From the NCBI GenBank assembly GCA_037043015.1, contig CM073321.1:14195001-14259000 (forward strand): a DNA stretch of 64,000 nt, written 5' to 3'. The DNA comes from Bryum argenteum. Lineage: Eukaryota > Streptophyta > Bryopsida > Bryales > Bryaceae. Position numbers and translations under genes: made by a program. The notes beneath the pieces were generated by a model. The model saw only the letters and a program-made list of their open reading frames with translations, was not told the DNA's origin and searched no databases. Position 1 is the first letter of the stretch. Each line of letters opens with the position of its first letter. Positions 12,642 through 49,772 of this stretch are shown here, in pieces.

Positions 12642-12927
12642 TTAGCTTGATTCGAGCTAAATAAATTACTAGTTCAACCTTATTCTTGGGCAATTAACTC
12701 AAATTGAGCTAAGTCCTCAGCTGTTTCATTATCCTACGTAGGGAATTAGCTCGATTCGAGCTAACTAAGTTACTGGTGAGCCCAGTCCTTCGGGAATTAG
12801 CTCGACTCAAACTATGTCCCCAGTTGATTCATTATCCTATGTAGCGAATTAGCTCGAGTCGAGCCAACTAAGTTACTAGTTCAGCCCAGTTCTTGCCTTC
12901 TTGGGCAATTAGCTCGACTCAAGCTAG
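12642..12927. repeat. regular array of palindrome B (19 bp, 9-N-9)
   Basis: Six copies of variants of TTAGCTCGANTCGAGCTAA start at 12642, 12694, 12746, 12797, 12849 and 12909, so five spacings are 52, 52, 51, 52 and 60 bp. The copy at 12746 is perfect. The linkers alternate between an ACTAAGTTACTRGT-type and a CAGYTGWTTCATTATCC-type sequence, giving a higher-order unit of about 104 bp. The array ends at 12941-12964 with a sequence that recurs inverted at 36986-37009. Confidence 0.85.
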
Positions 12928-13590
12928 GTTCCCAATTAACGGGTATTTAACTAATTATGGACAATTTGAAAGTCCAAAAATCAATGGGCTTTCCGTCCGA
13001 CACACCTCGAAGGTGCAAACAAGGCAAGGCAAAAAAACAGAATGATTGAATATATTAGCAATTCGCAGAAATTAAAGATGAATACTCTGTTAGAGTAGGA
13101 AACAAATCCATTTCATTAAAAGAATAAACGAATATTCCAAACGCAGCTCGACCCATTAGCATGTGGTATCGGCGCGCAGCCGACTGCACTAACTTCGCAT
13201 CAATAAATATTACAACAGCGTATATAAAATACAACAACACCAGGTATTGAAGCAGAACATAGATATAACATAGGTGAACTGCAGTGGTGTCGGCTCGCAG
13301 CCGATAAGTTGCAACGCGACTCCATCATTGGCTTCCTCCTTTCTGGCGCTCCATGTTCAACAATCCAGGATATAATTCCTTGGCAAATCTCGATTTGAAG
13401 ACCGACTGCGAGAAGTCGACGAGTGCGAGTGCTGACGGGCTCATCGCAGGTTGTGCTGCATCGGCTCATCGCTTGAAGTGTCGGCTCGCAACCGATAGGC
13501 ATGCAGAATAAGTAAAACCTAAGAACACTGCAATCTGAGAGGAACAACGTACTTGAGGGAATGAGCAACTTCATAATGAAGTTGACCCGG

Positions 13591-14357
13591 TGTTACCCGC
13601 CGAACCACGGGTATCATCATCGAAGACCACAGCCACGGGGAGACCAGGAATTAACGACGACCCCGGGGCTCGAGGCCAAGGACACAGTGATCAGAAGACC
13701 ACGAGGATCGAGACCGTGGACACAGGCAGTAAAGTCGAAGGGCAGCGCAAGGGATTTGGTTTTATTATAAATAAGGGTAGAATGATACAATAGCAGCTCC
13801 TTGTATTGCTAGAACAGGATGTTAGCCACGAGTGCGTACTCACGAACTTTGTAGCCTTACGGCATTCTCCAATTCAATGCAAACACAGGACTCAGTCCAA
13901 TTCTATCTTACCCCGCCTCTATCTATTTTCTACTACCCTCCTCTAATCGCGCTTCTGTCTGCGGAGGCCTTGGCACCGTGGTAGTCACCGAGTCGGAGCC
14001 GTGGTGTCTCAATCTCTCACGTGGTTGTCGCACCTGCCGCAAAACCCCGCCCAAGGATCTGTCTCGCCAACCAACCAAGACTGTGGCCGTGGAAGTGAGC
14101 CAAGGACGAGTCACCCGGGAGATCAGAACCACTGGTCTTGACCCCCTCGATCATACCTCGGCCGCTCGGGATCGCTCGCCCGACCGAATTAATCACTAGG
14201 TGATTGCGGCCCGGCCAACGACCGCCCATACCCCCTACCCGGACCACAGGAGTAATTGTGAGCGTCGTCTCCAAGCCCCGGTCTTCTCCCTGTTTCCTAC
14301 CTTTACCTTCCCCGTTCTCATACCTCGGGCATCTCCATACCCGTACCCCGGCTAACA
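13591..14357 (+). repeat. 5' LTR of the Tat-like element
   Basis: Begins TGTTACCCGCCGAACC and ends CCCCGGCTAACA; it matches 22712-23474 with scattered small indels. It is followed by the primer-binding region and an A run at about 14395-14436. Confidence 0.92.
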
Positions 14358-14394
14358 TTTTGGCGACCATGCTGGGGATGGAATGCTGAGGTAG

Positions 14395-14439
<45 letters not shown>

Positions 14440-17400
14440 AGAGAGAGAGAAAAAGAGAAATCTGGCTACGAGCCACTAGGAAAGGAAATGCCCCCGAAAA
14501 GGCACGCCGCGGAAAAAGCCGTGGAAAATATTGTTGCAGATATGGAAGAAATAGTGCAACATGAGGATGAAACCAGGGAGATACTACAGTGGATGAAGCA
14601 GCAGATGACAGATCTGGCTGCTAAGAACGATGCCACGAACGCTAAGCTAGAACTGCTTAGCCTGAAATACCAAGATATCCAAGGTAATGGTAACCCCGAG
14701 GCTATCGCTTCCACACCAAGGAGTGAGGGGAACCCCGAGGCGACCAGGATCGGCAACCATCCCTCGGGAAACAACGCCGCGGCCACTCAAGCACTTCGGG
14801 AATGCCATCCCCGCCACCCGTAGTGGTACCCACGGGGATCCCAAGTGTATCACATAACCCGGGAGCCTTGACGCCCAAGCTAAGTTACCCAAAATACCTT
14901 ACCCGTGTTCGACGAATCGGGGGACCCAGACCGCACATCGAGATTTAAGGTAATCGCGCACGAACGGCATTTTCCATGCCACGGATTTGCAGAACATTTT
15001 TGGTACCACGCTCCAAGGAAACCATATCAACTGGTACATCGACTTTGAATCAGAACACAACAATGCCAGTTGGGAAGATATGGAGCGTAGTTTTTTACAC
15101 AAGTTTCGAAAACTTAAAACAAGTTCGGAAGTCCTCCGAGCATTGGGATCAATTACTCAATCCACGAACGAGCCTGTGGATAAGTTTTATCATAGATTCA
15201 AGCAGTTGGCGGATAAACTTAGCCAACGGCCCAAAGAGGAGTATATGTGTGAATGGTTTAAAAAGGGGCTACTTCCATGGATACAACAGGGCATTGTCAT
15301 CCGTGGCGTAAAAACGTTGCCAGACATTCTCTCTGCTGCAAACGACATCAGCAGAGAGCTCACGGCCCTGAAGCAGACACAAGCCCCCATTTTACCACTG
15401 CCCTCGACACGGAAGGATGCCAAGGTGACAACCCCCCTGTGCGAGACTGTGGAAAAACACACCTTGGACGATCTTTGGTATTCCACCAATACAACGCCGC
15501 CCCAGACCCTGTGCGCCCCAGAACACCATGGCCGCGGTATACCCCGACGAGGTTAACGTGGATGCGTTTCACCGCCCGCTCGATGCATCTTTGGGAATGC
15601 GGAGGATCGACCACCGACGGAGCCGCCCCAATATTCAAACAAAATGGGCTCAAAATCGAAACAATAATACCGGGGCCCCGAACACAAACACCGCTCACAC
15701 GGAGGGGAGGGGTAACGCCGATCGAGGTGCACGGACCGAGAGACTAATGTGTCCACGATATCGGCCTCCGCAGTGGCGACAAGATCAAAAGCCGTTCCCG
15801 AACCACGTGGTGGAACACGAAAAGCCATTTCGAAAATACACTGGGAGCGGCTACACAACCTCGAGAACAGAGATATACAAAAAGACATGGAAGCCTCACT
15901 CCCGGACCAAGGACGTGCCACGGATCACACCTGCAAAGAATCTCGGACACTACTAACGTGACCATCACCCTGGCAAAGTTAGTACAAATCGGCTCCGAAT
16001 CGCAGCAATATTTACAACGGGCTGCGTTAACCGAGGCAAAATCGATCCCGCGTTCGTGGAAGTTAATGCCACCACTTTGGACCTCGACGCTGCGGTGATA
16101 CGAGTGCAACTCGGGGACGACGCTAACCAACGTCCTCGTAGATGGAGGGTCGGGAGTGAACGTAATGAGCAACCATGTTCGACAAGCACTAGGATTGCCG
16201 CACCCGAAGCGCTCGTTTCATTTTACGTACGTATGGCTAATGACGCTCGAAATACACCCCGGGAATTCTCACCATGGTCGGGATTGCAATACACGGGTAT
16301 CAACACCAAAGAACATTCGTAATCATCGATATGCCACATGACAAACAATTTTCCGGTAATTTTAGGGAGGCCGTGGTTGCGAGACATGCAAGCAATTCAC
16401 GATCGGATAAAAATCAGATCCACCGCAACGCCACGGAAGAACCGTGGTCATCCCCGTGGATAGTCATGTCGACCCGTGCCAAGATGAACCGGATCCGAAC
16501 TTCGGCCGGAACGGATTGGCGGAAGAATTCACAACAGAAGAGGCTCTCGTACTCCACGCACCCCGACCGATACCCGTGGCGGACATACATTTGGCTAGTC
16601 TCGATGCAAGAAGAAAAATCGGATATCCCCGAGCACTTCACCCGGAGATAGCCGGAGAGGTTGTGGTGAACGCCGTCCCGGCCAAAACGGCATTACATCA
16701 CGAAACCATCACGGGATGGACACACGGGGCCAAGGAGAGAGTACACCGGTCAACCTCGGAACAACAGACGAGCCCAAGTACATTAAAATCAACACAGACG
16801 CACCACCGGGCATTAAGCAAGCGACCATCGCCTGCTCGACGAGTACATGGACATATTCGCCGGAACCACGAGGACCGAAAGGCATCCCCAATTCCTTGGC
16901 CGAACATACCATCGATCTCATCCCGGTGCAACCCCGGTGACAAAGAACGGAGTTACAGGGATGAATCCGAACTACGCCGCCCGAGTCAAAGTGAACTAGA
17001 CAAACTACTCCACGCCAAGTTCATTTCGCCCGTGGATGCAAAGACCGTAGCTCTCTCCCATGGTCATTATTCCAAAAAAAAAAGGCACGTTGCGCATCCG
17101 TGTGGATTTCAAAAACTCAACGCCGCGACAAAAAAGGACCATTATCCATTACCATACATGGAAGAGATCATCGACGAGGTTCTTTGGACATGAAATGTAC
17201 TCGTTCATTGATTGCTTTTCGTGGTACTACCAAGTAGCCATGGCGAGCAAGACAAAGGTAAAACGGCTTTTTCCACGGAATGGGGACCGTACCAATTGAG
17301 CGCATGCCCTTCGGGACCAAAAACGCACCCATGACATTTCAACGGGTCATGGAATTAATCTTCGAGACCATACCTCAAACAGTTCTTCCGCATCTACCGG

Positions 17401-20261
17401 GACGATGGCACCGCTTACGGCAAGATGAAAGACCATGTTTCGCATCTCGAGCAAATTTTCCACGCTGTAGAGCCAACGGGTAAGCCTTAACGCGACAAGT
17501 GCATGTTTCGTACTTCGCGGGGTTATCTTGGGTTACATCGTGTGTAAATATGGCAAGCTTCCCGATCCTGAGAAGATCAAAGACATCCTGGACATGACAC
17601 CACCAACAAATCAAAAAGGCGTACAACGGCTCCTGGGTCTAGCACATTCAATCAATTTATATAGAAAAACTAGCCCACATCACCGCCCCAATCACGGCTT
17701 TGAACCATGCCAAGTACACATACCCACGGATCGGGACGACACCGAGGCACAAGCGGCGTTGGATAAGATAAAAACGCATACTCCAACGCACCGATACTCA
17801 TAGCCTCGACTGGTCTAAACCATTCCACGCCCACACGGACGCGTCTAATCTTGCCGTGGGAGTAATGCTAGCACAAAATGTAAATGGCAAGTACGATCAA
17901 CCCGTGGCATACGCTAGTAGACTACTCAACCAGGCCGAACGAAACTACTCCACCACGGAGCGGGAAGCCTTGGCAATGATATACGCCGTCAAAAAGTTTA
18001 GACATTACCTCCTCGGGAAGAAATTCCGGTTCATGGTCGACCACCACGACCTTGTCACCTCGTAAACCGGACATTGGTCACGGGCGAGTGGCTCGGTGGA
18101 TCATGATACTCCTCGAATACGACTTGAAGTGGTATACGTCCCGGAAGCGACACATCGTGGCGGACTACTTGTCCAGGGACACCAACGCCACGGCGTAAGG
18201 AATAGATGACTCCTTCAACGAGGCTTATGTACAAGCCCAGCCACGCAAATCGCCACGGACACCAAGGAGCACGGGGACGATCGGAGGGCCGATACATTAG
18301 ATATCTCACCACGGGCAACACTCCCGTGGACATAACGGGACACACGCAGGTCGACTTCGTGCAAAACACTCCCTTACACCGTGGTCCATGGGAAATTATA
18401 CAAACGGGGGCCGGATCAAGAGATCCGGCTATGCGTACCCACTGAACAGCAGCAGCAGATCATCAGACATCTCCACGATGGACCCGCAGGAGGCCACCAA
18501 GGCCCTGACACCACGGTAAAAAAGATTCTCTCCGCCAAGTACTGGTGGCCAACGCTCCACAAAGACGTGATTGCCCATGTCAAAAATTGCCACGCCTGTC
18601 AAATTTCCACAACAAATTTTCAAAGACTAAGGCAAAGTACCAATGAAGGCCATACCTCCCCTGGGACCATTTCAACGGTGGGGGTTGGATTTCGTGGGAC
18701 CAATCAAACCAGTTACACGCCAGGGATACAAGTACATCCTCGTGGCCACGGACTACACTACGAAGTGGGTAGAGGCCAAGCCTCTGCGGACCAACACCGC
18801 CGTCGTCACGACCTCGTTCATTTACGAAAACATAATTACAAGGTTTGGATGCCCCCGGAGATAGTATCGGACCAAGGCACGCATTTCACGAATACCGTCA
18901 TACAGGACCTCCTCGATAACCACGTTATCAAACATCGCACCAAAGACAGATGTATTACCCTCGGGAAATGGGCAAAAGAGTCGACAAACAAGACACTAAT
19001 TAATATCTTTGAAAAGATTTGTGCACGCAAATCAAAGCGGATCGGGATGATTGTCTACCACCCACACTGGCTTACCGTGTCGCCAAAAACCGCCACAAAT
19101 GCCACCCGTTCAAAATGGTTTACGGTACTCAACCCCGCTTCCCACGGAGTACATCGTACCAACGTTCCAAACACTACAACCGAGGGATTACACTTCACAG
19201 TGGTGTCTTTGGCACCCGCATCAACGACCTACACCACCTCGAAGAAATTAGAACCCTGGCTACATCGCACATACATCACAAATGACCCTGACGGCCCGCC
19301 ATTTCCAGGAAACGCAGCCTCCACGGTGTTTTTCAAAGGTGACCAAGTACTTTAGTGCCCCGAGACCCCAAACTCAAACGGTCTAAATTTGAGTCGATAT
19401 GGCATGGCCCATATACGGTGCGATTGGTTCTACCTAACAATACCGTACTCCTCGTCAACAAAGACGAACTACGACCCCCACGCCACGATAGTCAACGCCA
19501 CAAAACTCGAAACAATACTACACTCAAAGACCACAACCCCAGATGCCCCTAAGCCTACAGGATATTCACACCACGTTGGCATCCGAGGCACGGGACATGG
19601 AAGAAAACCACATGGATCTAGCTAACAAACGGACACAGCCACGCCACCGAGAGACACACAACTCGGGTCACCAAACACCCAAGGCATCGTGCCAAGCCAG
19701 GCAAAACCCCCGGGAATGAATACAGCGGACACGCATGACCCCGCGGAAGACACACACACCCACAACACCGAGGAACAGATCCAGGGGCACGGAGGAATCA
19801 CAATCCAAAAGCACAAAACCAGTCCATGGGACTTAGCTGCAAAAGCGACCTCCCCTACCGAGGCCATACCCATGTACATCCCATGTGCATACATAAGCCA
19901 CATCCATGTCATCCAGGGCCCAAACACAAGACGTCCCAATCATGAATCTACTCCCGAGGAATGCCACATCATTACCATAATTACCTCCCAAGTTCCGCCC
20001 GAGGCATCATCACCAGATTCTACCCTCGAGACACCATCACTCTATTCTATAAAGGCAGACACCGCCGCCACGGACAGAGCCATCATTACCACTACTCTCC
20101 CACCGCCGCAGTCAGTGCAAACTCAAATAGTGCGGACTTCCCCGGGGAGAACTCTTTTTTTTGCAACATCAGCTCACTTTCGTGCGCATTGCTTTTCGCG
20201 TCTTTTGCTCTCTCTACCCATCCTTGCTCCCAGTTCGAACCTCTTGCAGGTGTTAGCAGCC

Positions 20262-22480
20262 ATGGCGCGCGGTGCCCCCCGGGAGCGGAAGCCACTGTAC
20301 GTCCCACGACAGATCGCGAAGTGGAAGAAGTACCCCGACGTTGAATGGCTCACCGAGGCAGGATTGTTGCGATACGCAAACCACCTCCGTGAGAATATTG
20401 ACCTCGGACGATGCAGGGCATTTATCGCCTCAATGAGGGAGCGGCAGCAGGAGGATCCTAACAACACCGAGGTGGCCGGGGTCGTGGAAGGGGTCCTCGT
20501 TAGGTACTCCCCGAGGTACCTCCACCAATTCTTCGGTTGGGATGGCACGGGGGTCACTAGCTGGTCAGTGCACAGCAGCAGTCTGCCACAGCCCGACACC
20601 ACGGTTTACACCCACGGGTACCCTGTCCGAGGAGGAGGCAAGTTCGACGTTTACGATATCACACGGAACAATCCAAACATGCCCGACCCGTGGTTTGGCA
20701 GAATCCGTGGCATACTCAGCCAAGTATTTTTTCGGAATGACTGCAATGCAGTGCATCCGGATCAAATTGCATTGTGTGTCATGGCGGGCCGCGGCGAAAA
20801 GATTAACTGGGGTCGGCTCGTGGACAGGAATGCGGTGAATCAAATCCAAGGGCATGTCCAGAGTGACGACTACGAGAGCCCCATCGCCCCATTTTTGACA
20901 CAGTTTATCGGCCATTTCTTGGATTACCACCGGGTAAACCATCACCCCTGGGCCATGGGCACCTTCCTTGATGTACAGCGCGAGGTGGCAGAATCCCAAG
21001 AGCCAAACACTACGCCAACCCACCGTGGAAAGCGGCCACGCACCGAGGAGGAGGTGACAACAGGAGGAGGCGGCCCCATGGAGATCGCCAGTACGTCCAC
21101 GACCACGGAGTTCGGCCCCCGCGCCAAGGAGTTCGAGGCCCAAAACGCACAATGGAGACTTGTATGGAAGAGATCTCGCACTTCCTTCACAAACAAGGGA
21201 GAAACAAAGAGCAGACACCTCGGCCAAGTACAAAGATCGGGAGACTCGGCATAAGCGCCATACGGCACACCGATGCGGACAACCCAGTGCCACGGCTCGT
21301 AAGTCCATGGAGGAGTACAAGGCGAGGTCCACTCCCACACCACCAACTCAAGGACGACGATAACTTCCCCGCAGAACCAACTCGATGCACGGGATCTAGA
21401 ACTCCGTGCGACCACGGAAAGGTCCCGCACTTTCGAGGACCAAAGCACCGAGGACAGGGGAGAGAATTGAGCGGCTAGACCGCCAAAACCGCGAACTCCT
21501 CGCCAAATGCAAGACATTGTCGGAGGAGTTGGCCCTCAAAGCCACGACCCCTTCTCCAATGCCACGGACATGGACACGGTGCAGCGGCACCGCCAGGAGG
21601 TGGAAAACGCCCGGGAGAACTTCGAAGCCAACAAGGTGGCTTGGACGAATCACGCGGCTAGAATTATCGCCACCACAAAGATACCACATGCCGCGATCGA
21701 ACCACACACATCGGAAGAACCCCCGTAGCATTCCTTGATCAATGCACAGGTGATGCATTAATCGCATTGGAGCTTGAGGACTCCGACAACACCTGGGGCA
21801 GCCAAGGCGAACCCTTCCTCGGAGAGGATGACGAGGAGGTACAACCTCAACCCATGGAGGAACCAGAATTGACCCAGCCCCGGACATACACCCACGAGGA
21901 GGATTATGACAACATACCGGAGGAGGAGGACACCCACGAGCAGCCGACCCCTACACACGCCGGGGGCAGGCAATGGACACTAACTCCGGGGAAGGCATCT
22001 ATCAATTCCCGACACAAATTGGAGAAGAGAGGGTGGACATACCGAGGGGTTTACGCACCACGAACAGACGCCACACCATCTCCGCGGCAAAGACTCTTTG
22101 GCAAGCTCGCCCCCATACCACCTTCCGGTTCATCACCACCACCTACACAAGACGAGTCCCGGGTGAGACAAAATCCGGATGGTACTTACCCCCGGCCGAC
22201 TCGGGCCGAGTCCTCGGTAGCCCACTCGGACCCCCGCCCACGTTCTCCCGTTGCGAGTAATACCCTCCCGTTATCTCTCGCCAGGCACAGGCAAATCCTC
22301 CTCCGGAGGAGGAGGAACAGGAGGGGTGGAACATGGAAGACGCGGATGAAGACGGAGACGAGGCCTCGGAGTCCATGCGATTCGTGTTGCGTTATTTCCA
22401 CGAACACCCGGACCTCACCGCACATTATGCCAACTCGAGACTACAGGCGACGATTGCCACTGCATGCAATCGGACCTTAG
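20262..22480 (+). other. post-integrase ORF region of the Tat-like element
   Basis: Fossil part. After the integrase, sequence from the ATG at 20262 encodes a globular protein (MARGAPRERKPLYVPRQIAK, later GRGEKINWGRLVD and SPIAPFL), followed by coiled-coil-like and acidic stretches to about 22480. A TATA-like TCTATAAAGGC at about 20043 could be its own promoter. The block GRGEKINWGRLVD...SPIAPFL resembles LRGEREVDWGMIIRDL...SPITPFL of the gene in the 37430-40879 element, so both belong to one transposon-borne family. Function unknown. Confidence 0.6.
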
Positions 22481-22711
22481 GGGTACGGTGTTCGATGTAT
22501 ATACACATGCGCTCAATTTTCGAGGAAACCATGTCCTGATACATCGAGCGGTGGCGAGGCACACTCCGTCGATCGTACTCACGGCGAAGAACCCCCTCGT
22601 AGCGGTCGGCAATTTCCCCGGGAGCAAGCCAGACCGAACAGGAGGCCCGCCCCCACGCGCCGCTAAGCCAGCAATTCGAGGACGAATCGCACTCTGCAAA
22701 GGAGGGCAAAA

Positions 22712-23474
22712 TGTTACCCGCCGAACCACGGGTATCATCATCGAAGACCACAAACCACGGGAGACCAGAATTAAGACGACCCCGGGGCTCGAGGCCAAGG
22801 ACACAATGATCAAAGACCACGAGGATCGAGACCGTGGACACAGCGATGAAAGTCGAAGAAGCGCAAGCAAGGGATTTGGTTTTATTATAAATAAGGGTAG
22901 AATGATACAATAGCAGCTCCTTGTATTGCTAGAACAGGATGTTAGCCACGAGTGCGTACTCACGAACTTTGTAGCCTTACGGCATTCTCCAATTCAATGC
23001 AAACACAGGACTCAGTCCAATTCTATCTTACCCCGCCTCTATCTATTTTCTACTACCCTCCTCTAATCGCGCTCCATCTGCGGAGGCCTTGGCACCGTGG
23101 TAGTCACCGAGTCGGAGCCGTGGTGTCTCAATCTCTCACGTGGTTGTGTCTGCTGCCGCAAAAACCCCGCCCGCCCAAGGATCTGTCTCGCGAACCAAAG
23201 ACTGTGGCCGTGGAAGTGAGCCAAGGACGAGTCACCCCGGAGATCAGAACCACGGGTCTTGACCCCCTCGATCATACTCGGCCGCTCGGGATCGCTCGCC
23301 CGACCCAATTAATCACTAGGTGATTGCGGCCCGGTCAACGACCGCCATACCCTACCCGGACCCTGGGAGTAATTGTGAGCGTCGTCTCCAAGCCCCGGTC
23401 TTCTCCCTGTTTCCTACCTTTACCTTCCCCGTTCTCATACCTCGGGCATCTCCATACCTGTACCCCGGCTAACA
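22712..23474 (+). repeat. 3' LTR of the Tat-like element
   Basis: Matches 13591-14357. Preceded by the purine-rich stretch AAAGGAGGGCAAAA and followed by the CCCGG target copy. Confidence 0.92.
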
Positions 23475-24684
23475 CCCGGTCTATTAGAAAGACTCATATA
23501 TTCACTAACAGATTCGAACTGGTATAAGGGGTAGATGAACGGAAGGATATCTGTAGCTACATTTGGAATAGTAGTACTTGAAGACGTCAAATCACCTCGA
23601 AAAGGATAGGGCATTTAGCACGCAGCATCCGGCGCCAACCTTAACGCCAGTGGAGAAACATGAACGAGGAGAAGCTGGTCGGGCCTGCACACCTCTCGGG
23701 AACGCCGCTTGCAATAGAGAGTCTTCAGGAGCTTGTAACACCACGGAAAATTCATAGGATGATTACAATATTCTCTACCAAAAACAAATGATAGCCTGTC
23801 CATGACGCCAGAAGGTAGAATGTAAGATAGGAGAGCCGTCAAGTCACGGATTGGCATCGTACACCAGAGACCAACATGCAAGCGCTCCAACAACATGGCA
23901 AATAACTTTGTTAGACCTGGCCGCTTGATAATATTACGGTGAGCAGTCCAACGATCCGTCGGAATATTGGGTTTGATGTAGCATAGCAATCTAGATACGC
24001 ATAGAATGATACACTTCTTGGAGGAAGAAGTACCAGCAATGTCATAATCAAAACGGCAGTCACCCTGAACAGTACAAGCCTAAAATAAGTCAGATCGTAG
24101 GATAGAAGTGCCATTCATAGCAATAGAATGATAAGGGCAGGCATATCGGCCGGCAGTCGACAAGAAGACAAAAAAAATATAAACATTGAGGTGTCGGATG
24201 GCAGCTGACACGAGAAGAAAACAAACTAGACAGTCCATGAGTAGAAACATCACCGAAACAATGACCAGAAGAAGCCATGGATCCTTAAGCTAAAAAGAAT
24301 AAATCAGCAAACACCAAATATAAGAACCAACACCAAGAAAGGGAATATGATAGAAAACTCTACATGTTGAGATAAAGAGATTCTTCGCATATTAAACAAC
24401 CTCATAATATAAAGTTAAGAAAAAGTCTGGAGTAGATCCCTAGAAAATTTACAGAAATAGAAGAAAATCTAAGTGATCTATAAACTCTAGTTCCCTAGAT
24501 CATCAAATACGATGATTTCAAAATCTATACACCCACACTAAGGACCTGTACTAAGATGGTATTCTATGTAGACTAACAAGAGGTGTATCGGCCGGCAGCC
24601 GACAACTGGAGCCTCTTGAACTTGCTCCAACATCTTGAACACCTCGTAGGCAAAAAAAGAGGAGGAGGAGTAATCAATTTATGA

Positions 24685-25460
24685 TTACTCCTTCCTTTCA
24701 AAATCAATCTTCTTGTACTTCTCGTACAGCGGATGAGTCGGAAACATACGGTGTTGCCCTAACCTTGGGTGCTCCTGAAAAAACTGAGGAATAGTTTTTC
24801 CGGAGGAATAGAATTCGAACAATAGAGGCTGCAAAAACCTCTGAAAGTAAGGCTTCCCACTCAAATTCTGCTCCGAGGTCATAGTGCAGGTGGAGGGGTG
24901 GAACGCATTGAGCGGATTGTTCAGAACGTTCTTGTAGGGGGAGTCGTCAATGAGAAGCATGTTATCGGGATTGGCACCACGAGCAACCAGCTCAGGACTC
25001 ATTTCCAGGAGATGAGCAATTGAATTTAGAAAGTAGGGCCGGTCAGGATTATGAGGGTCCCGGTAGCAACTCCAAAAACAGTATCTCTGATCAAACTCCA
25101 AGACGTCCTTAGGGAGATTGGGACAAATTTTCCGAATAATTTCAATCCTCGGAGTAAGGTTCTTCTGATATACCGAGGACCAGAAACAAATTTTGAACCT
25201 TGCATTCAGGCAAAAGGTTATTAACTCGGCAAGGCCAGGTCTTGCCCTTGCCTCCTGCTTCAACCAACGGGGACGATCTCCACCGGGAACGACCCTACGA
25301 AGAACGAAGTGAATGAGAGTGCCATTCACGTCGAAGAGAATAAAGTATTTAAGCGGGGCTACCTGATCTCGAGGTGAGAGATGAGTCGCAATGGAGGTGC
25401 CCGGCTGCGATCCATAAAAAGCGGAGTCCACAATCTCCTCGTTCACAGATTCACCTACCT
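24685..25460 (-). CDS. FCP1-like (HAD superfamily) phosphatase gene 1, main exon
   Basis: An open exon ends with a stop at 24685 and begins at an acceptor ATGCAG just right of 25460; the first coding exon was not found, so the start is incomplete. It shows the FCP1/NLI-interacting-factor signature: motif I FILFDVNGTL (first Asp kept, second position Asn, as in many plant FCP1-like proteins), motif II CFWSSVYQKN, and motif III MLLIDDSPYKNVLNNPLNAF. The family removes phosphates from Ser/Thr of proteins such as the RNA polymerase II tail; the substrate here is unknown. No stop or frame break interrupts it, unlike its neighbours. Palindrome A copies lie on both sides (24586, 25575, 25604), probably in the flanking intron and 3' region. 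It is a paralogue of gene 2 in the same element. Confidence 0.7.
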
Positions 25461-26027
25461 CTGCATGAGATTAGAGCATTTGTACAATAAGCAAAAGAGA
25501 AGCAAGAAGTATGCAAAAGAGTGAGGTAAGAGCGAGGCAGAGGCGTGTGGCTAAAGACTACTGGGATGAGAGTGTATCAGCTGGCAGCCGACAAGGGAAC
25601 ATCTGTCGGCTGCCAGCCGACAGATGGCCAACCCAACAAATTACACAATGTGAATGAGACGAATCACAGAAAGTGCGAATGGTGGGAGTAAAAACACATA
25701 AGATCCAACTTCATGATGAAAAGGAGAGGAATAGTGCAAAAAATTGACATAACGACTTGTCGGCTGAGAGCCGATAAGCCGAGAGAACACGGTTGAGAGA
25801 TATCGATAGAGGAGACACGGGATAAAGGCAAAAACGTGAAACGATAATAGGGAGTCGGCTGGCAGCCGATACAGTAGTACAAGGGAACAAACTCGCCGAG
25901 CACGTTGCAACCAAGAAACTCATATAGCAGAACCATTCTAGAACCTAAAATGCTGATGCAATGGTGAGAAGAGACTATATACAAGAAACGCCGTCGTCTA
26001 GGACAAACCTTCAGGTAATTGTTGTTG

Positions 26028-29000
26028 CTACGGAAAACCATGATCCGACGCAGCTGGAGACAGAGCCTCGTTCGGGGCGTCGATGGCATATACGCTGTCG
26101 TCCACGAGGGCCGCCTCGTTTGGGGCGCTGATGTCGTATACGTCGTCCTCTTGGAGAGCCTCCTCGTTTGTGGCGTTAATTTCGTAGGTGTCTTCCTCCA
26201 AAGGGGCCGCCGAATCAACTGCGTCCTCCCTATGAGTATAAAACGCCTCCACTGACGATTGAGCCCTCTGAAGTTCCCTAGAGGAAGAAGGCGGAGTTGT
26301 CGGCTGCCGGCCGATAGGGGCGAAAACGGACTGGGAAGGCCTCTGAGGGCGACGAGACGGTGGCACCTGCTCAACAACGATCACCTTGTCCTCCGGGGGA
26401 TGTTGCAAATCAAGCTGCATCGTGGTCCCAGCACAAGAAGGCAGATCTGCTCTAGTATCAGGAGCCGGTGCTGACACGGTGACAATGTGTCGGCCGGCAG
26501 CCGATACAGGCGGAGGGATGAGTGTGGCAGTCGATTCAAGGGGAGCCGTCGGCGTGGTTGCAGGTGTGAGAGACATTGGAGTAAGATCTATCTCCTCCAC
26601 CAGTTCCTGAATCCTAACACCAGAGGCGGGACGTCGTCCAGGGTTGACAGGCTCCCAAGACGAAACTGAGGGACCAGCGTCGGTCTCCATATCCTCGGAA
26701 GACGACGGTGGAAGCTCGACCCTATCGAGGTTGAGTCCCTTCGCACGTTGGACCGCCAACTTGACATGCTCTTGACTTTTGACAAACTCGATCACGGACC
26801 TCCCATGTTTCTGCAAGACCATGAACAAAAGTAAGACAATGTCGGCTGGCAACCGAGACCCATGGGAACCAAATAAGTACTGGAAAACGAATAAGGTAAA
26901 TTAAACCAATATCAGAAGGTGTTGGCTGGCAGCCGATACAAAGCAAAGGAGAGGATGCCTTACCAATCCAAGCTCGGTAACGTTTCCGCCACCCCAGACG
27001 TTGATGACGGTGACCTTCTTTGCTGTGAGAGTTGGCTTAAGGAACTTTTCGAGCGTCTCATGGTCGACACCGCAGAATCCCCCATTCCAATCGACAGCAC
27101 CTTCAGGAGATGCCTGGAACCAATTGACTGGCTTCACGATTCCAGTATACTTCCTGAATGTCGTCCACCGATCATCATCCCCGCGTACCTTTGGGTACAT
27201 CATGTTGAGCGTAACAAGCGGCGAAGATTCCGTCACCGTCTTCTTGAACCCCCCCCCCGAAGACACGGCTTGTAATACACCGTCTGAACATACCATTCAG
27301 TATCTTCGATTGTCCAGACAGCAAAAAGAAGATCCCGTTGCTTCGCGCTCGTTATGAACAACATCGGGATAGGGTAAAGCGGTCGTGTCGGAGTCACGTC
27401 GTCATCGTCCATCGCGAGGTCGTCATCGGTGAGTGGGACCTTCAAACGTTCCGCGAGCGTACGAAGATCCGCTCTACTTGTTGGGACCGAGACTCCGCCA
27501 ACAGTGTACCCGAAGTAGACGTTAAGGAGTGGGTCCTTCTTCAATGCCGGTATGGCCAACAGCTGCGTCAATCTCCTGCACGACATTAGCAACTGTGTCC
27601 GCGAATTTGCAGTCGAAATAAGCCTTCTCGGCATTGACCTCTTCCGTCGTGACCTAGACCTGCTAATACATTTGGAGGATAGTGCTAAATATGGGCGGCG
27701 CAACCCCGTTCTTCGACTTGTCCGTCGTCGGATTCATTGCGCTCGCGCGACCATTAAGCCACTCATTCCCGTCCGTGTATTTCTTGAGGTCGATCCAGAT
27801 GTTGCGCACGACGCTCGGAGTGAAATGGTGCTCCTTCGCCAACTTGTCCCATTCAGAATCAGGGTATGGCGACCAGTTCGCATCCTTGCAGGGAAGCGGA
27901 AACCTCTTCAGCTGATAAAGAAGCTCGTTCATAATGACCCGGTCGAGCTTCTTGTCGCGGCACCAGTCCGGCAGTGTGAGTCTGTCCTTCGTCCTGCTGT
28001 TAGACTTGATGCAGACGCGATTCGCAATGACCTCCGCTGCAAGCTCTTCAAGATCGCAGTCACGGAGACCCAGTGTCGGGACAAGGTCGGTCTTCGTGAT
28101 GTTCGAGATTGGAGACCGCTTGATCAGTCCCGGCTCCTTGCCGTCGTCCCCAATTAGCTCACCTGCTTCCCAGGCATTGAAGACCTCGATCCACGTATTC
28201 CAGGCCTTGTCACAGACGAATACCAAAGGGAGCTTGGAAGACACCTTCTCGTTCACAAAGTGCGCCATGACTTGCGCATTTGCAGCCTGAAGAACAACGA
28301 AACATATTTAAATGAATGAAGGCAAGCAGAAGGACTGTCGGCTGGCAGCCGATAGGTGGAGATAGATGTAATGTGTCGGCTGCCGGCCGATAGGAATGGC
28401 AAAGGGCAACGTTACCTCGAAGGCCGGTGACGGCTTCCCGCCTCCCTTATGTGGCTCAGGGCACCCGAGTCGCTTCCATGCTGCCCTCCCGAGCTCCGTG
28501 CATGATCAAAAGGACTCTTTGGCGACCTTCTCTGCGATATTCAGGTTCAGGGCGTTTGATACCCTCACAAGATCGGTGGGGTCCCTTGAGAACACTGGGA
28601 TAATCTTGAATTCGAGAAGCTCCTTCTTGTCTTCCGATCCTTCGGGGTACTCGTTCGCCAACTCGCGGCAGGCTGTCACTGTATGCTGACCACCGATGAT
28701 ATACCAGTGGACAGTAGGATGCTGCCACCACGGAATTTTTGGGGCGGTGTTGGGGTCTGTGTCGTTAACCTTCCACATATCCAACTCCCCTGGCATCGAA
28801 TCCATGACAGCCATCATCCCGCTATCGATATCAAGTGGCTCCCGTTTCTGCGGAATTCCATGGATCTCAGGCTTCTTCCGGATCGCCCCATAGCCCTTGT
28901 AGATGGCCTTCACCTGCGAAGAAAAGAATAAAGGAACAATCATGAATCAAAGATGAACAGCAGATGTATCGGCTGCCAGCCGATACATAAAGCAGTACCT

Positions 29001-30404: not shown

Positions 30405-31673
30405 CGAAGCTGTATCGGCTGGCGAGTGCTCGATGTCGGCTGGCGTGTAAATCGCCTCCGCTTCCGCGCAAATCTGTTGGCTGGTGCGTAAGGAATGTCG
30501 GCTGCTGCCTCCGCTCCCGCGTAAGGCTATCGGCTGGAGCGTAAGAAATGTCGGCCGCTGCTAGAAACCCTAAACCCTAAAACTAAACACTATCAGCTGC
30601 CAGCAGAGTAACGGCTGAGGCAAGAAAGCAGAGAGGAAAGGTGAGAGCATGAAAGGAGAGAGGAGAGAAGACAGGAAGAAAGGAGAGATGAGAGAGCAAG
30701 TAGCAAATGAGAGGAGGAGAGAGCAAGTAGCAAATGAGAGGAGAGAAATGAAAATGAGATAAGAGAGGAGAGAGCAAAAGTGAGAAGAAAGAGCAAAACT
30801 GAGAGACGAGAGGAGAGCAAATTACAAATGGGAGCAAATGAGGGAGGGTGAAAGGTTTACCCCCTCCGGAATTTTTGCAATGATGGCTATCGGCTGCCTG
30901 CCGATTTGCGCCTTGCCCGCTTTTCAATCGGCTTGCCCGCTCTCGCATCCGCTTGCCCGCCCACCAAATGTTTTTGAAGCTCGCGCCGCCAAAACGTCAT
31001 TTCAAATTTATTCATCCATTTCATCATTGCTTTTCATCCTGGCTAGCAATTAGCCCTCCAAAAATTCAAAATCATTTGAAATTTGAGTTTGAAATCTTCT
31101 TAATTTGAGCGCCATCCATGTTGTGGTGTTTCAGATGGCTACCCTTTCCCAAATGTTTCTGACATTTCATTTCATTTCTCCTGTGTTTCCTGACGCTCTA
31201 AGCGATTTGCTTTGCTGTTTTTGTAGTTTTCCCTGGCCAGAAATAGTCAGGAATTGCGTCATTGTGTTCCCCGTGTTAGTGCGCTTCTTTCCATATAGAG
31301 AGCGGTAGATAGCAGCCTTTTATTACTTCAATTAGAACGATTTAATAGCTAGAGGCTCAATACCCTGGTATTAGACGCCAGCCGACATAGTGAATGACAC
31401 CAGCCGATACAATTCCTTAGGAATTAGTCGGATCTCTTTATATCGGCTGCTAGCTGATATTGTTGATTGGGTTGTCGGCCGCCAGCCGATACAGAACTAT
31501 CACGTGTCCCTCATTGTCTGTCCTATCTCCCAAGTTTTGCAGAACAAGGTATCGGCCGGCAGCCGATACCTCAGGTGGTTGTGTCTATTGCACCTGTCTC
31601 AAGTTCATATTATTTCTTTCATCTCGTCAACCTTATAGATTCGCAGTTGTGTTGGCCGGCACCCGATAGATCA
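30405..31673. promoter_or_regulatory. divergent promoter region of element A
   Basis: Lies between the oppositely oriented ParB-like and transposase genes. Next to the ParB-like start are about six direct half sites of palindrome A (TATCGGCTGG or TGTCGGCTG at about 30413, 30434, 30477, 30496, 30527 and 30548) instead of full palindromes. A telo-box-like AAACCCTAAACCCTAAAA is at about 30564-30581. A long GA-rich tract at 30612-30845 includes an imperfect repeat of GAGAGAGCAAGTAGCAAATG. Full palindromes resume at 30888 and at 31441-31668. Regulation by palindrome binding is inference. Confidence 0.5.
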
Positions 31674-34600: not shown

Positions 34601-35875
34601 AAGAACAAATTTGTGATGGCCTTCTGCTCTTTGCTGACCGCTCGGCGTATATTCAAGGAGGTCACTGTTGGGTTCCTGATTGTTGGCCACACTCACGAGG
34701 ATATTGATGCCCATTTCAGTTACCTTTCCAAGCTCATCAAGCGAAAGAACATGTACGTTCTAGGCAATCTCATGAAGGCTTTCATGGACTCGCAGAAGAC
34801 AGTCGTCTTCATTCCTGAATTCGTTCAAGCAGTCGCGGATTTCAAATCCTACGTCAAGGACTTTCATCACGACGGTGTCATCAAAATTGTTGGACTTGGT
34901 GATATGCATCTTTTTAAGTTCTGGGTCGAAGAGGACGGTGACGATCGTGGCTGGCCTGTCATGAGGTATAAGAGGAAATCGACTGATTCTTCTTGGCTCC
35001 CACCCGGTCCCCCCGTCAAGATGTGGACTTCTGACGAGCAAGGGAGACCTAGAATTCCACATGGCGACTCACGTCCTGTTCCATTTAAGCCATTATGGGG
35101 CGTCATGGAGGTTAACTCCAACAAGTTGAACTCCGTGAAGGAGCAAGCTCGTGCCTCGGAGTGCAATGACAAACAGGGTTTCATCAAGCACGGTATTTCT
35201 AAATTCATTGAGTTCTGGAAGACCGGTATGGCGCGTAATAGACGTTACAGCGAGGAGATGGCTGGACCTGTTGGCTACTGGGAGCGTATCAACCGGGAGA
35301 TCAATTCACCATTACCGTCTACCCCTGACGTTCTTGTGGAAGGATTTTGGCCTATTTCAGACTAGACTCGTGATCATTCTCATGCCTCGCTCGATTCTGG
35401 ATCTAGTTCCTCTCACTCACAGGACATTACGCCTGAGGATGATGCAGATGCTAATCCTTACTGTGGTCCTACTAAAGACCGATCGAGGCTCAACTTTAAT
35501 CCATTCCGTGATGTTCTTCTTGGAGACTTCGTCTTATGCCGCCCCAGCGACGACCATTTCCTTCCTGTCTGGCTGGGGCGTGTCCTTGAGTGTGTTGATC
35601 TGACGCCTGGTCCTACCTACGGCAATTTCAAGATCAAATGGTGGACCCCTATGCGAGCTAAGAAGGAAGGAAAATCGATCATCGCTAGAGAGTGCTGGAC
35701 TCGCTGCTGGCATAAGGAGCCTTGTCTTCCTCAGATTGTGAATGTGAACATTGTTCTGTTCTCTCATAGGATGCCATCACATGCAAGGAAAGGTCCACCA
35801 GCTACACATATCATTCCCGAGCAGGCCGCTGCAGCTGCAATGTCTAACCTTGAGGCCGCTAGAGCTGTTCTCTAA
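31674..35875 (+). pseudogene. DUF7869-type transposase-like gene of element A, decayed
   Basis: Exon 1 runs from 31674 to 33606 and exon 2 from 33890 to 35875. The intron 33607-33889 (GTAAGT...CCAG) holds three palindrome A copies. Exon 1 ends in a Cys-rich block (SSQLCCKSRCCQTFPW) and CENAWYIIHGVSRSAYHIYK. Exon 2 has CTECDFL, IIHDKMDTTKTAIPRMQ, HGHGDGAYAHYSTALWPGD, FLQLDNSAKDNKNKFVMAF and GFLIVGHTHEDIDAHFSYL, the signature of DUF7869 proteins. IIHDKMD, QLDNSAKDN and GHTHEDID could be the acidic triad of an RNase H-like DDE transposase (inference). The C-terminal part resembles a small DNA/chromatin-reading module (FVLCRPSDDHFLPVWLGRVL). About four in-frame stops and one frame slip show decay. 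Palindrome A also sits in coding sequence at 32012 and 32364. Confidence 0.7.
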
Positions 35876-36720
35876 GGTGTTCTGTATACATTTGTATCGG
35901 CTCCCCACCGACACGCTTCATGTGAGCCTCCCTCGCATCCTCCCACGCTATGACGTCCCTGCTCTGCACTTGTCGGCTGCCAGCCGATACTTATTATCAC
36001 TCATATGCTTTCGCACCAACAACTCCGACCTCCTATCGGCTGCCAGCCGACACGACGCTATACCTGCTGGTTCATATCCGACTCACCTTACTAGTGCGTT
36101 CCATGTCTATAGTCTCTGTGTACCTGTTGTAATTTCGCTACGGCATACTCTTCATTATCAATATGCTAGAGCTCTTTTATCACATTTGCTCTTCTCATCC
36201 CATTACTCTTGTTTACATTTTCTCGGCTGGCGGCCGATACCGGACTTAGCTATCCATGACTTTTGATTGCGGTATATTCATTGTTTTTGAGAATGTAGCG
36301 TTCATTGGTTGCTTCGTTGTGCTCCCTCTATTTCTCTAGTTTACTGTTTCTCGGCTGGCGGCTGATACGTGTCTGAGCTTCCTATGGCTTTCCGATACAG
36401 TATATCCTACTTTGTCTTTACTGTAGCGATCATTGTAATGTACACTTACAATGTACTCCTATTCTTTCATTATTCTCGCGTTTCTCGGGTGGCGGCTGAT
36501 ATCGGACTTTGCTATTCATGACATTATATTACTATATTCCTCTCAATCATATTGAATTGATCTGTGTATGAATGAGTGTGCAACCTTTAGGATTCCGTTT
36601 CATAGCTGAGATCTGATAATTTGTTACTACTTCTTCATCATATTCCTGGGGCTTCTATCGGCGGCCGTCCGATACAGAATTTCAGCTAATGTGGGTTGGG
36701 GACGGGATCTACGGTCTACG

Positions 36721-36803
36721 GTCTAGGGTTTAGGGTTTAGGGTCTAGGGTCTACGGTATAGGGTTTAGGGTCTAGGGTTTAGGGTTCAGGGTTTAGGGTT
36801 CAG
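36721..36803 (+). repeat. degenerate telomere-like repeats (GGGTTTAG)
   Basis: About eleven units of GGGTTTA, GGGTCTA or GGGTTCA in a row, close to the plant telomere unit TTTAGGG. They lie just inside the right border of element A, between palindromes at 36656 and 36816. Confidence 0.85.
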
Positions 36804-37429
36804 CGGTTTTTCTTGTATTGGCCTTCAGCCGATATAATTTCAATAGTTTTTTTTTGGGTAATTTAGATAGTTTTATTACTTTACATGCACTTTTCAATAT
36901 ATCTTGCTTGGTTTTTTATTATTTATTAATCTGCCATACATTTTGATAGTTATTTTTTTAGTGAAATTATCCATAAGTTCGGAATTTGTCCATAATTAGT
37001 TAAATATCCGTTCCTTGGTTCAGTATCCGTAGTAAGGAATTAGCTCGGCTCAAGCTAAAAATTCTGTTTTCATGTTTTTTGTAGGTCAACCTTGTAGTTC
37101 TTATGATTAAACACATGCTTTATGAATGTGAACGTGATCATCATGAACCTGATTGTCCTGACAATTTAGCTCGAGTCGAGCTAAAATACTAGGTTGTTTC
37201 TGGCAGTTGTCCATGGATTCTGGTAACAGTGAGGTGGGCGTAGCAAAATCATGGGCGTTTTTGCTCGAGTTAAGCTAACCATCTAGATCTTCGATCGTTG
37301 TAACCATGTTAACATCATTATATGCATTAAACTAAATAGCTATAAACTATTAGGCAACGTAAGAACTAAACTTGGTTTATAAATTTAGTTATACTTAGCT
37401 TGACCTGAGTTAAATTCTTTAAGCTTAAT

Positions 37430-40879: not shown

Positions 40880-41173
40880 TTAATCAACAATTCTAAGTTC
40901 AATAGGAACTTAATATTGCATCCAACATCCATCCTCTGATCGGTGTTTTGGTTGAGTTACATGGTCATTTAGCTTGACTCGAGCTAAAGATCCTGCTTGC
41001 AAACATAAACATGTTCTCGAGACTTATCACACACGATTTGGTTGTAAAGTACTTCACGTAAAGGATCCGGGTCTGGTCTTGAATAGGTTAATTAGCTTGA
41101 CCCGAGCTAAGTGGCCGCCCTTCTTTCTTTAGTTAGCGCAGACACTAACTATTATAGTTGGTGAATTGCAGAC

Positions 41174-42554
41174 ATGGCTCGCATTAGGAGAACCTCTAGA
41201 ATCATTCCCGCTCTTGCAATCTAAGAGGGAGATTCCGCTATAGAGAGTCAGGATGAATGTCATGATACTGAGGTATAAATACTTCAACAAAGCCCCCTTT
41301 GTTTCTTTCTATTTCAAAAATCGAATCCATAACATGCGTGCATTACAATTTAGCTTGGATCGAGCTAAATCTTTTGGTTTCCTGTTTCTTCAGGTCATGT
41401 TTGACACCAAAGTTACTGAGGGCTATCTAATGCCCTCAATCCTGGAGCCATCCAATGTCCTTGCTTCTGCTGCCAAGGACGTTAAGCAATTTGGAATGTT
41501 GTCGGCTCCGAAGCCGCATTCCATTATCGTAGTCCATCTACCCCAAGGAGAAGTCTACTATTTTCCACCTTTTCCAGCAGTCTGGAAATAATCCCGCGTA
41601 TCTCCCTATCTACAACGAGACATTCATCTCGTTTGTCAACTACAAAGAATCACACTTTCTGATCACGCTTCAAGCGACCTCATCCCTGGTTTCGTGTTCA
41701 CTATCGTGTTTCCTGCAAATGAAGTGCGATACTCGCACAAGAATATCAGAGCTTATTTGATTGGGACTACGGAGACGAGTCTCGTAGACAACATTGTCTT
41801 GAACCTACTCAATCTAAGCTCTTCCAAGAAATCTGTCCAAACCTACCAGCAGTATACCTCAAAAATCAGGAGTGCCTTGTCTAATCACAAAGCAAGCAAG
41901 GTCAAGGGAAAGGCTCTTGCGCAAAGGGTTCCTGTGGCTGCTTAGGATGAGGGTACCGGGTCAGGGACAACTTGATCGGGTATGGCCTCACTTAAAGCAA
42001 CTTCTACGACGACCAGGAAACGCCCCAACTCGAACCCCTCTTCTTCAGGTGCTAATAAGAAGAGAAAGAAATACGAGAGTAATCTAGGAGGCAGTACAAT
42101 TACTTATTTGAATCCTACTATGAAGCATGGCACTTTCGAGAAGGATATCGACTATGTTCCAACAAGTAAGACTCTCAAGAATTTCCGGGAGAAGTGCGAG
42201 CCGTATTACGTTCTTTGCAAGGAGTCAAATCTTGTCCTTGTATCATACAATCTCCTTGAGCCCGCCAAAGCGCAATACATCGTCTGGGAGCTGGAGCCCG
42301 TTGGAATTGTGCATTACAAGAATATCTTGACAAATGCAATCGGCATGAACTCCAGGCAGACCATCATCATCATGCACATGATCGCTCACGATCCTCAGAG
42401 ATGGGACTGGGCAGTACTACTCGCGTCCAAGTGCAAATTCCGTGTCATCGATGGGCAGCATCATGTTCAAGCCGCATAGGAGCTGATCAGAGGTGCGAGA
42501 ATCGCACCGGAGAAGATCACCTCCTTGAAGACTTGGTAGACACTGGTTGTTTGG
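41174..42554 (+). pseudogene. ParB/DGQHR-like gene of the B-type element, truncated
   Basis: Exon 1 runs 41174-41272 (MARIRRTSRIIPAL). The 121-bp intron 41273-41393 (GTATAA...TTCAG) holds one palindrome B. Exon 2 continues to the gypsy relic at 42555, which removes the 3' part. Exon 2 has a Lys/Arg-rich NLS-like run (ANKKRKKYE) and then CKFRVIDGQHHVQAA, close to the DGQHR signature and similar in place to GGQHTVTAC of the element A protein. The frame carries several stops, nearly all one C-to-T step from CAA, CAG or CGA, and a possible frame slip near 41580-41680. It is probably the B-type counterpart of the gene at 26028-30404. Confidence 0.55.
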
Positions 42555-45472: not shown

Positions 45473-45527
45473 CAAAGACATTTGACTTAGTAATAAAAGA
45501 AGTTGATCACAATATCTAGAGCGGATT

Positions 45528-45549
45528 AAACTTGCGGCACCGCAAGTTT
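45528..45549. repeat. 22-bp perfect palindrome
   Basis: AAACTTGCGG, CA, CCGCAAGTTT: two 10-bp arms around two bases. It is a single copy and unrelated to palindromes A, B and D. It lies just upstream of the last exon of the SWIM gene, probably in an intron. Confidence 0.85.
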
Positions 45550-46612: not shown

Positions 46613-46804
46613 ACACTTTTCGGAATGTCTGACTGAATTGTTCGTATTCGACATGTCTGTCTGACGTCCAACTTGACGGGGATGTCGGATAACCAGAAAT
46701 TGCATAGTAAAAACTTGTTGAGGGTTTCCGAGATTGACATTGTTGAGGGTTTCCGACTATTTTCATACGAGGCGTGGGGTTGATAATGACGTGGAAAATG
46801 GAAT

Positions 46805-47300
46805 ATTAGTTACAGTAGGCGACCGCGGGTGGGCGAGCTCGGGTAGGCGACCGACGGTGGCCCTGTGCGAACGACGGTCGCCTATAGCGATTGCCGATCG
46901 CCCTAGGTAACCGCGCGTAGGCGACCGGCGGTCCAGGGAGATCGGCGGTCGCCTTGGCCACCGCGCCTAGGCGACCGCCGGTCTCCTTAGAGCGAGCGAC
47001 GATCGCCCAGGGCGATAGACGCTCACGGGAGGGAGACCGGCAGTCGACCTGCCCACCGCACCTAGGCAACCGCCGGTCTGCTTAGAGCGAGCGACAATCG
47101 CCTAGGGCGATAGACGCTCCCTCGAGGGAGATCGGCGGTCGACCTGCCCACCACGTCTAGGCAACCGCTAGTCTGCCTAGAGCGAGCGACGATCGCCCAG
47201 GGCGAGAGACGCTCGCTCAAGGGAGACCGGCGGTCGACCTGCCCACCTCACCTAGGAGACCCCTCGTCTGCCTAGAGCGAGCGACGATCGCCCAGGGCCC
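46805..47300. repeat. tandem array containing palindrome D (AGGCGACCGNCGGTCGCCT)
   Basis: Four to five imperfect units of about 85-105 bp. Each has a GCGACCGCCGGTCT-type and a GACCGGCGGTCGAC-type palindrome, plus GAGCGAGCGACGATCGCCCAG. The near-perfect 9-N-9 design (for example around 46911 and 46970) matches the design of palindromes A and B with a different sequence. Confidence 0.75.
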
Positions 47301-47356
47301 GCCAAGAAATAGGGAACCTCATATTTAAAAATAAGGTTACAACCGTATATCAAATG

Positions 47357-47674
47357 TCAAGCATATATGCATCCGTATTTAAATAGGTCATTATGGCATT
47401 CTCGGAGGTTCTCTTCATTGTGAGACCGATGAATGTTGTGCCGATGTAGAGGAAAGAGCTTGTTGATGTAGCACCACTCCACATATCTCACACACATGGC
47501 AAAAGACCACGGCTCCGTCTTTTGCTCCGTCTTTTCCTCCCATCTTCTAAAAGCTAATATCTTTGGATTCTTCAAGATCTCTATGCGCTTCTTCCCAATC
47601 CTCTTCTTTATCTTCCGACCTTGGTCATGTGGCACCATGGATGTAGCAGCTACAACGGGTAGTGCCTCCATCAA
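47357..47674 (-). pseudogene. Cys/KYV-motif protein fragment, homologue of 2147-3388
   Basis: The frame encodes a basic stretch (KIKKRIGKKR), then SFAMCVRYVEWCYINKLFPL with a following H, and CHNDLF. This aligns with TMCKKYVKMYHIMKLWPRH and CKSDHF of the D1 protein. The Tyr/Gly/Asn-rich tail is not seen here. It sits between two clusters of palindrome D. Exon limits are uncertain and function is unknown. Confidence 0.45.
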
Positions 47675-47779
47675 AAATATCCGTAGAAACGCATATTTCT
47701 TCTACATGCAAGCAAGCAGCAACACTGAAGTCGATACTAGTCAGTGCGCGAAAGGAGGGACTCGCAAAGTGTGAAAATG

Positions 47780-48005
47780 GACTGCCGGTCGCCTTCTTAA
47801 TCACAGTAATATGGCGACCGGCAGTTGACAGAATCTGTACCGCCGGTTGCCTTGTGACCGATGTTCGCCCATCGGCACGACCGCCGGTCGCCCTGCCACA
47901 AGAGGTCGCTCTATCTGCACTGCCGGTCGCCCTTTTCTGCACCTTCGGTCGCCCTTCCGCACCGTTGGTCGCACTATCTGCACCGTCGGTTGCCCTATTT
48001 GCAAT
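47780..48005. repeat. second cluster of palindrome D variants
   Basis: Variants include ACTGCCGGTCGCC, GGCGACCGGCAGT, ACCGCCGGTTGCC, CGACCGCCGGTCGCC and ACCTTCGGTCGCC, about every 20-40 bp. They lie directly upstream of the gene at 47357-47674, as palindrome A variants lie upstream of the ParB-like gene. Confidence 0.7.
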
Positions 48006-49770: not shown

Positions 49771-49772
49771 AG

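Follow-up and report, generated by a model that had tools for sequence, protein, structure and literature searches.

Family-specific palindromes paired with clades of a ParB-like gene in DNA transposons of Bryum argenteum

Results

The window analyzed here is a 64 kb stretch of contig C1 (44.1 Mb) of Bryum argenteum, which harbors a large DNA transposon, element A, inside a second element, B, and a group of imperfect palindromes, D (Table 1). Element A carries a putative transposase gene with a DUF7869 domain and, on the opposite (minus) strand, a chain of open frames including a NIF-phosphatase frame and an exon with a GGQH motif that resembles an N-terminal ParB domain (ParB-N); B carries a frame with the motif DGQH. 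Palindrome A (TATCGGCTG-N-CAGCCGATA) has 35 matches in the window at ≤3 mismatches, four of them perfect (expected 0.01). The terminal inverted repeats of element A, at 12938 and 37012, enclose all 35, and none at this threshold falls into the long terminal repeat (LTR) retrotransposon inserted in A. Palindrome B (TTAGCTCGA-N-TCGAGCTAA) yields 13 matches at the same threshold, two perfect (expected 0.01), at 7931, 12642-12927, 37040-37278 and 40969-41368. These sites flank element A on both sides and precede the B gene; the B element is interrupted by A, whose insertion seems to have split the upstream array. The site at 7931 belongs to another B fragment (86% match between 7897-7995 and 40935-41033).

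The genome (258.8 Mb in 25 contigs) was searched with the A, B and F cores, F being a further type, resulting in at least 149, 150 and 150 matches, respectively (best 150 candidates scored). Across the identity range, 32 loci of 6-10 kb were fetched, each picked via its DGQH gene. A blind palindrome search recovered a clade-typical dispersed palindrome in 30 of the 32 loci; in a shuffle control (one per locus, first 20 loci), no cluster was larger than 4. The largest cluster in locus L007 is a different repeat, with the A site ranking second. L027, a B-clade locus scored as clade-typical, harbors a drifted site (TTAGGTAGC-type plus TTAGGTCGA-N-GCGACCTAA) that looks like a specificity change under way. 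Altogether, six gene clades display six sites, five of the 9-N-9 type with arms of 9-11 and one of a 9-0-9 type. Besides A and B, these are F (TATCCCCGG-N-CCGGGGATA), G (TATCGTCGR-N-YCGACGATA), H (TCAACTCGA-N-TCGAGTTGA) and E (ATSGGGCGA-TCGCCCSAT, no central base). An outer TATC is common to A, F and G, and an inner CTCGA-N-TCGAG to B and H. Site counts over all loci are nearly exclusive by clade, leaving a few single stray matches; G counts in A and F loci as well as cross-counts between H and B stem from shared half-site ends at four mismatches.

Which palindrome a locus carries agrees with the position of its protein in the tree. A maximum-likelihood analysis of 29 core rows (A-clade loci L008-L015 and P0004, without most of the core, were omitted) places A, B, G and H each in a single clade with 97-100% bootstrap support and E in one with 89%, and the F clade is interrupted by database proteins only. 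A reverse check started from 50 perfect A sites of the 263 in the genome, all in the first 24 Mb of C1: 45 have an A-type gene match no more than 15 kb away, compared with 2.6% of random points, and 15 of 19 A site clusters have such a match. We consider the link between DGQH-type protein and site highly probable.

D differs from this pattern. Its palindrome has five matches in the window at ≤3 mismatches (expected 0.01), all imperfect. Most of them lie in or adjoin a 95-bp tandem array (46935-47298) and are thus not independent. A local palindrome scan around D found ten imperfect sites, mostly in or near that array; D-like arrays are also present in L015 and L031, and no DGQH gene turned up next to the D sites. 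A CACTA-like end, CACTATAAGAAAACCCTG, is located at 45977, with no partner end at ≤3 mismatches within the window; together with CTATAGTG near 48113 (stretch 45977-48120) it suggests a CACTA-like element around D. A frame near D (44025-44645, minus strand) gives a weak SWIM-like match below cut-off.

A sequence-only reading of the window had proposed three unrelated palindromes of one 9-N-9 design with the same arm length and one-base center, each confined to its own element, and had raised the question whether each coincides with its own DGQH-type gene. The common design holds for A and B and extends to F, G and H; with arms of 9-11, a 9-0-9 site in E and a D site that is never perfect, neither arm length nor center is fully fixed. 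"Unrelated" was too strong in view of the segments common to A, F and G and to B and H. Confinement and the companion gene were borne out for A and B, the latter also for the four further families E, F, G and H. The case is weaker for D, which mostly belongs to a tandem array and could not be linked to any DGQH gene.

We next turn to the protein. The DGQH and middle regions gave nothing significant against Pfam, NCBIfam and PDB profiles, and were identified by structure only. The DGQH domain of a database relative is predicted to adopt a ParB fold (ParB/Srx, ParB-N fold match). Canonical ParB clamps carry a helix-turn-helix domain that reads parS and a C-terminal dimerization domain; here, the region after the ParB fold is modeled as helical at low predicted local distance difference test score (pLDDT). 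Residues 255-457 of database relative P0126 are predicted to form a beta-class DNA amino-methyltransferase fold matching CcrM and its relatives. Beta-class methyltransferases are marked by motif IV, (D/N/S)PP(Y/F/W), and motif I, FxGxG. Both are absent from all 19 rows covering each stretch (20 aligned; place of motif IV taken from the model), a test that covers B, F, G and H, with A and E outside it. Compared with DGQHR/DndB-type domains, which are marked by DGQHR, a QR pair and FxxxN, the cores read DGQH, NGQH or GGQH with an invariant GQH and no arginine after it, and contain an RQ and an invariant N; L007, a broken copy outside the core alignment, reads GQR. In F (L021), a single open frame of 581 aa spans the ParB core and the start of the middle region. 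The A GGQH exon, aligned with L005 and L018, matches F-type relatives in hhalign (95.8%, E-value 8e-9), and the following A exon (27666-28307), aligned with E and another A copy, matches alignment A4 (84.7%, E-value 7e-6). Judged by eye, the stretch at 26904-27296 may contain a degenerate methyltransferase motif I. The ParB, methyltransferase and phosphatase parts of A would be spliced as one protein. NIF/FCP1-type phosphatases carry the signature DxDxT, the second Asp of which is replaced by Asn in the A frame. The B DGQH frame ends in a stop directly after the motif, where its relatives continue.

Searches of 5.8 billion proteins identified five relatives of the F core and nine of the F middle region. 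The best is 64% identical for each query (one partial match 65%), versus 85-100% among F cores within the genome (best 150 candidates); the relatives are therefore probably from other organisms. Several continue beyond the conserved exon end, apparently by intron translation. Six of the 14 relatives (6 of 134 proteins scanned overall), sharing 42-59% identity with their queries, carry a run-on peptide compatible with an in-frame F palindrome, for example YPRPGD or a terminal LSPGRG. The peptide pattern, drawn up after some matching proteins had been seen and with the match known from peptides alone, has seven matches, one of them (P0002) imperfect, versus a shuffled mean of 0.1. In viral contigs, neither the A nor the F site occurs in exact form, and alignment A2 has no confirmed relative there.

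Sites are rarer in open frames than expected from frame coverage. Using hand-trimmed exons, 3 sites lie inside exons in E, 0 of 25 in F (L022) and 3 of 38 in A, where exons cover 56%. As the trimming of L022 and the window was done with site positions known, we recounted with whole stop-to-stop frames, and the deficit persists: 3 of 17 sites in E (L018; frames covering 62%), 6 of 25 in F (L022; 76%) and 9 of 38 A sites at ≤4 mismatches (window 23480-37018; 61%), sites in arrays not being independent in these counts. A probable intron of the DUF7869 gene contains three A sites (33645-33840), and in B, E and F arrays are placed directly upstream of the gene.

Element A itself is a transposon. 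Its end pattern has 241 and 237 matches on the two strands of the genome (≤3 mismatches), compared with 0 for a reversed control. Nine of ten other A end pairs, 12.5 to 17 kb apart and read by eye, are flanked by a perfect 4-bp target duplication, one of the nine ending in AAA instead of AAC. The window copy lacks the duplication (aatt/cctt) and may therefore have been rearranged. The LTR retrotransposon within it is flanked by a 5-bp duplication, cccgg, also read by eye.

Table 1 Features of the window
Feature	Position	Strand	Remarks
Element A, large DNA transposon	12938..37012		24.1 kb; ~14.2 kb minus LTR insertion; ends AACGGRTATTTAACTAATTATGGACA
LTR retrotransposon inserted in A	13591..23474		LTRs 13591-14357 and 22712-23474, 94% identical
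A palindromes	13288..36834		35 sites at ≤3 mismatches
Phosphatase-like frame (NIF/FCP1-like, PF03031), downstream of A gene	24688..25470	-	
Further A open frames	26031..27296	-	
Exon after ParB-like domain, A gene	27666..28307	-	homologous to E middle region, weakly to F
GGQH (ParB-N-like) exon of element A	28509..28946	-	at least 149 genome matches
Putative N-terminal exon of A GGQH gene	29003..29752	-	
Putative transposase gene with DUF7869 (PF25273)	32254..35872	+	
B palindrome array	12642..12927		six sites, spacing ~52 bp
B palindromes, opposite side of element A	37040..37278		three sites
B palindromes, directly upstream of and inside 5′ part of B gene	40969..41368		three sites
B DGQH frame (VIDGQHHVQAA)	41976..42476	+	
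D sites, imperfect palindromes	46845..47298		mostly in 95-bp tandem array

Further observations concern the surroundings. TTTAGGG-type telomere-like repeats are present at 36708-36809, just within the right end of element A, and the right part of the window contains a near-identical duplication (49770-55903 versus 57866-64000, 99%) with a repeated 1.3-kb unit. Approximately 129 of the 150 B-type core matches listed lie on C1, which makes up 17% of the genome; C1 is possibly a non-recombining or otherwise unusual chromosome. Read directly, all six site types and D contain at least one CpG per arm (the clades are related and the cases not independent), and cytosine methylation could therefore affect recognition.

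Discussion

The sites, their concentration within the elements, their placement in introns and 5′ arrays and their divergence along with the gene lead us to a reading that we hold to be rather likely: the palindromes would be element-specific binding sites for the transposons' own dimeric, probably non-catalytic ParB-type accessory protein. According to the predicted models of database relatives, from which the ParB and methyltransferase folds are taken, this protein would combine a ParB-N (DGQH) domain, a helical middle and a beta-class methyltransferase fold devoid of catalytic motifs, with a phosphatase-like end in A, E and F. A dimer would read one palindrome, with one subunit per 9-bp arm, and dozens of sites in promoter array and introns would mark the whole 14-kb element as self. 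With many sites spaced by a few hundred bases, marking could extend along the element without sliding, which would fit the missing P-motif arginines (see below). Protein and site would have diverged jointly during family splits, so that each family addresses only its own copies. The most likely effect would be that the element is kept open or regulated against host silencing, like VANC or VirB; for this anti-silencing function, argued by analogy, we see about even chances. We infer direct binding, dimerization, self-marking and anti-silencing. The sequence-only reading had likewise assigned the sites to diverged members of one dimeric DNA-binding family, which the clade pairing and the predicted ParB fold support and to which D does not conform. 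Its suggestion of a partition-type role is unlikely in plain form for an integrated transposon, and we reject plasmid-type partition as the main role because the elements are integrated, with target duplications on either side.

Several observations weigh against this reading. No palindrome cluster was found in L010 and L014, the E site departs from the 9-N-9 design, no gene match lies within 15 kb of 5 of the 50 A sites or of 4 of the 19 clusters, and five F sites lie within one long open frame of L022. Since loci were picked via the DGQH gene, the reader could be encoded by a different gene that the elements share. On the protein side, full-length models have a mean pLDDT of 52 and 56 and are confident for two domains only, the methyltransferase fold match has a high root-mean-square deviation, the middle region of F is matched only weakly by A and E, and no DNA-reading part was located. 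The canonical P motif of ParB clamps dependent on cytidine triphosphate (CTP) is GERRxR; its arginines are absent from 13 of 13 aligned cores (GQH followed by S, T, H or C), making CTP-clamp sliding doubtful. For a related Ectocarpus protein, active methylation has been proposed (PMC12477816).

Among other explanations, the palindromes could be transposition sites, bound by the DUF7869 transposase or an accessory factor to assemble element ends, as TnpA acts on Spm subterminal repeats in end assembly. Element A does have a DUF7869 gene, terminal inverted repeats and 4-bp duplications, and its sites begin some tens to ~350 bp inside the ends. We nevertheless regard this as unlikely: the palindromes are spread over the full length of the element, introns included, and crowd directly upstream of the ParB-like gene, and tblastn matches to DUF7869 were restricted to the window and two A-type loci, L010 and L014, the fetched stretches being only 6-10 kb long. 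We assign a similarly low probability to pure autoregulation, in which the protein would repress or activate its own promoter with no marking of the whole element. The arrays that directly precede the gene in B, E and F would suit such operators, whereas many single sites are remote, lying within introns and next to the transposase gene, which is transcribed divergently.

That the methyltransferase is active and the palindromes are its targets, each family methylating itself, appears very improbable. The predicted fold match to CcrM and relatives points that way, as does the Ectocarpus Sola1-1 protein, predicted to make N4-methylcytosine or N6-methyladenine (PMC12477816); motifs IV and I are absent from the sequences tested, as described above. 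Least probable of all is that the palindromes are inert and hitch-hike with the element, matching the gene tree via shared descent only, for although many arrays are tandem repeats with repeated flanks (e.g., B), flanking columns carry almost no information in A and little in F while the palindrome is shared, symmetry is retained between clades of differing sequence, and F-fitting peptides recur in relatives 42-59% identical.

The proposed accessory protein would belong to a class that is not new, because ParB-methyltransferase transposon proteins have already been described. Ectocarpus Sola1-1_Ec32, likened here by description, is a giant DNA transposon whose gene, opposite the transposase strand, combines a ParB-like with an N4/N6 methyltransferase domain, for which active methylation is proposed; no word beginning with "palindrom" occurs in that text, and no palindromic targets are mentioned in the part available, in contrast to the private palindromes and missing catalytic motifs (B, F, G, H) found here (PMC12477816). 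In the literature searched, which covered few subscription papers, we found no report of palindromic targets for such proteins, and the green and red algal studies cited there (refs 50, 51 of PMC12477816) could already discuss them. Sola elements are described, in the excerpt available, as having 4-bp target duplications (PMC10741241), like nine of ten A end pairs. A DDD transposase is a further mark of Sola elements; the putative transposase gene of A has DUF7869.

In arrangement, a close parallel is VANC21 of Arabidopsis VANDAL elements, according to the accessible portion of that paper an element-encoded factor that binds a family-specific 9-nt motif, YAGTATTAY, in introns, intergenic and terminal parts, where DNA methylation is lost, with motif and protein diverging together (PMC5735166). 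Words beginning with "palindrom" or "dimer" do not appear in that paper, and a protein with a predicted ParB/methyltransferase fold sets our elements apart. In fold, the parallels are bacterial. As far as the sources at hand go, the ParB relative VirB of Shigella counters H-NS silencing from parS-like palindromes (PMC10770331), and KorB of RK2 acts at a distance (PMC11790492); both share a ParB-N fold and short operator or palindromic sites near promoters, and both are CTP-dependent sliding clamps, unlike the present proteins with many dispersed sites and no P-motif arginines. ParB-parS partition complexes likewise combine a ParB-N fold with a palindromic site and are reported there to cover 10-20 kb (PMC10770331), about the size of these elements, which differ in being integrated transposons with dozens of sites and a degenerate P motif. 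Fusions of a ParB fold to adenine or N6/N4 methyltransferases are described for bacteria and phages (Bce_0392, PMC5512222; survey PMC12704722), differing as prokaryotic proteins. That 2025 ParB-fold survey contains no word beginning with "transpos"; among eukaryotic forms, its available part lists sulfiredoxin as the commonest (PMC12704722).

Taken further, these elements may represent a prokaryote-derived ParB address system in eukaryotic transposons, in which a dead ParB-methyltransferase coats its own element via dozens of private palindromes, and interlocking protein-palindrome pairs, evolving in many families side by side in one genome, provide each family with its own anti-silencing channel; we put this forward tentatively, at somewhat less than even odds. 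It would be a ParB-fold parallel to VANC anti-silencing. ParB-methyltransferase genes of algal transposons are known, with no target given in the parts of those reports available; here a likely target, one private palindrome per family, is visible, which would open the function to direct tests. Moreover, the protein-site pairs, at least six of which coexist, would constitute a natural experiment on specificity change in a dimeric DNA-binding protein.
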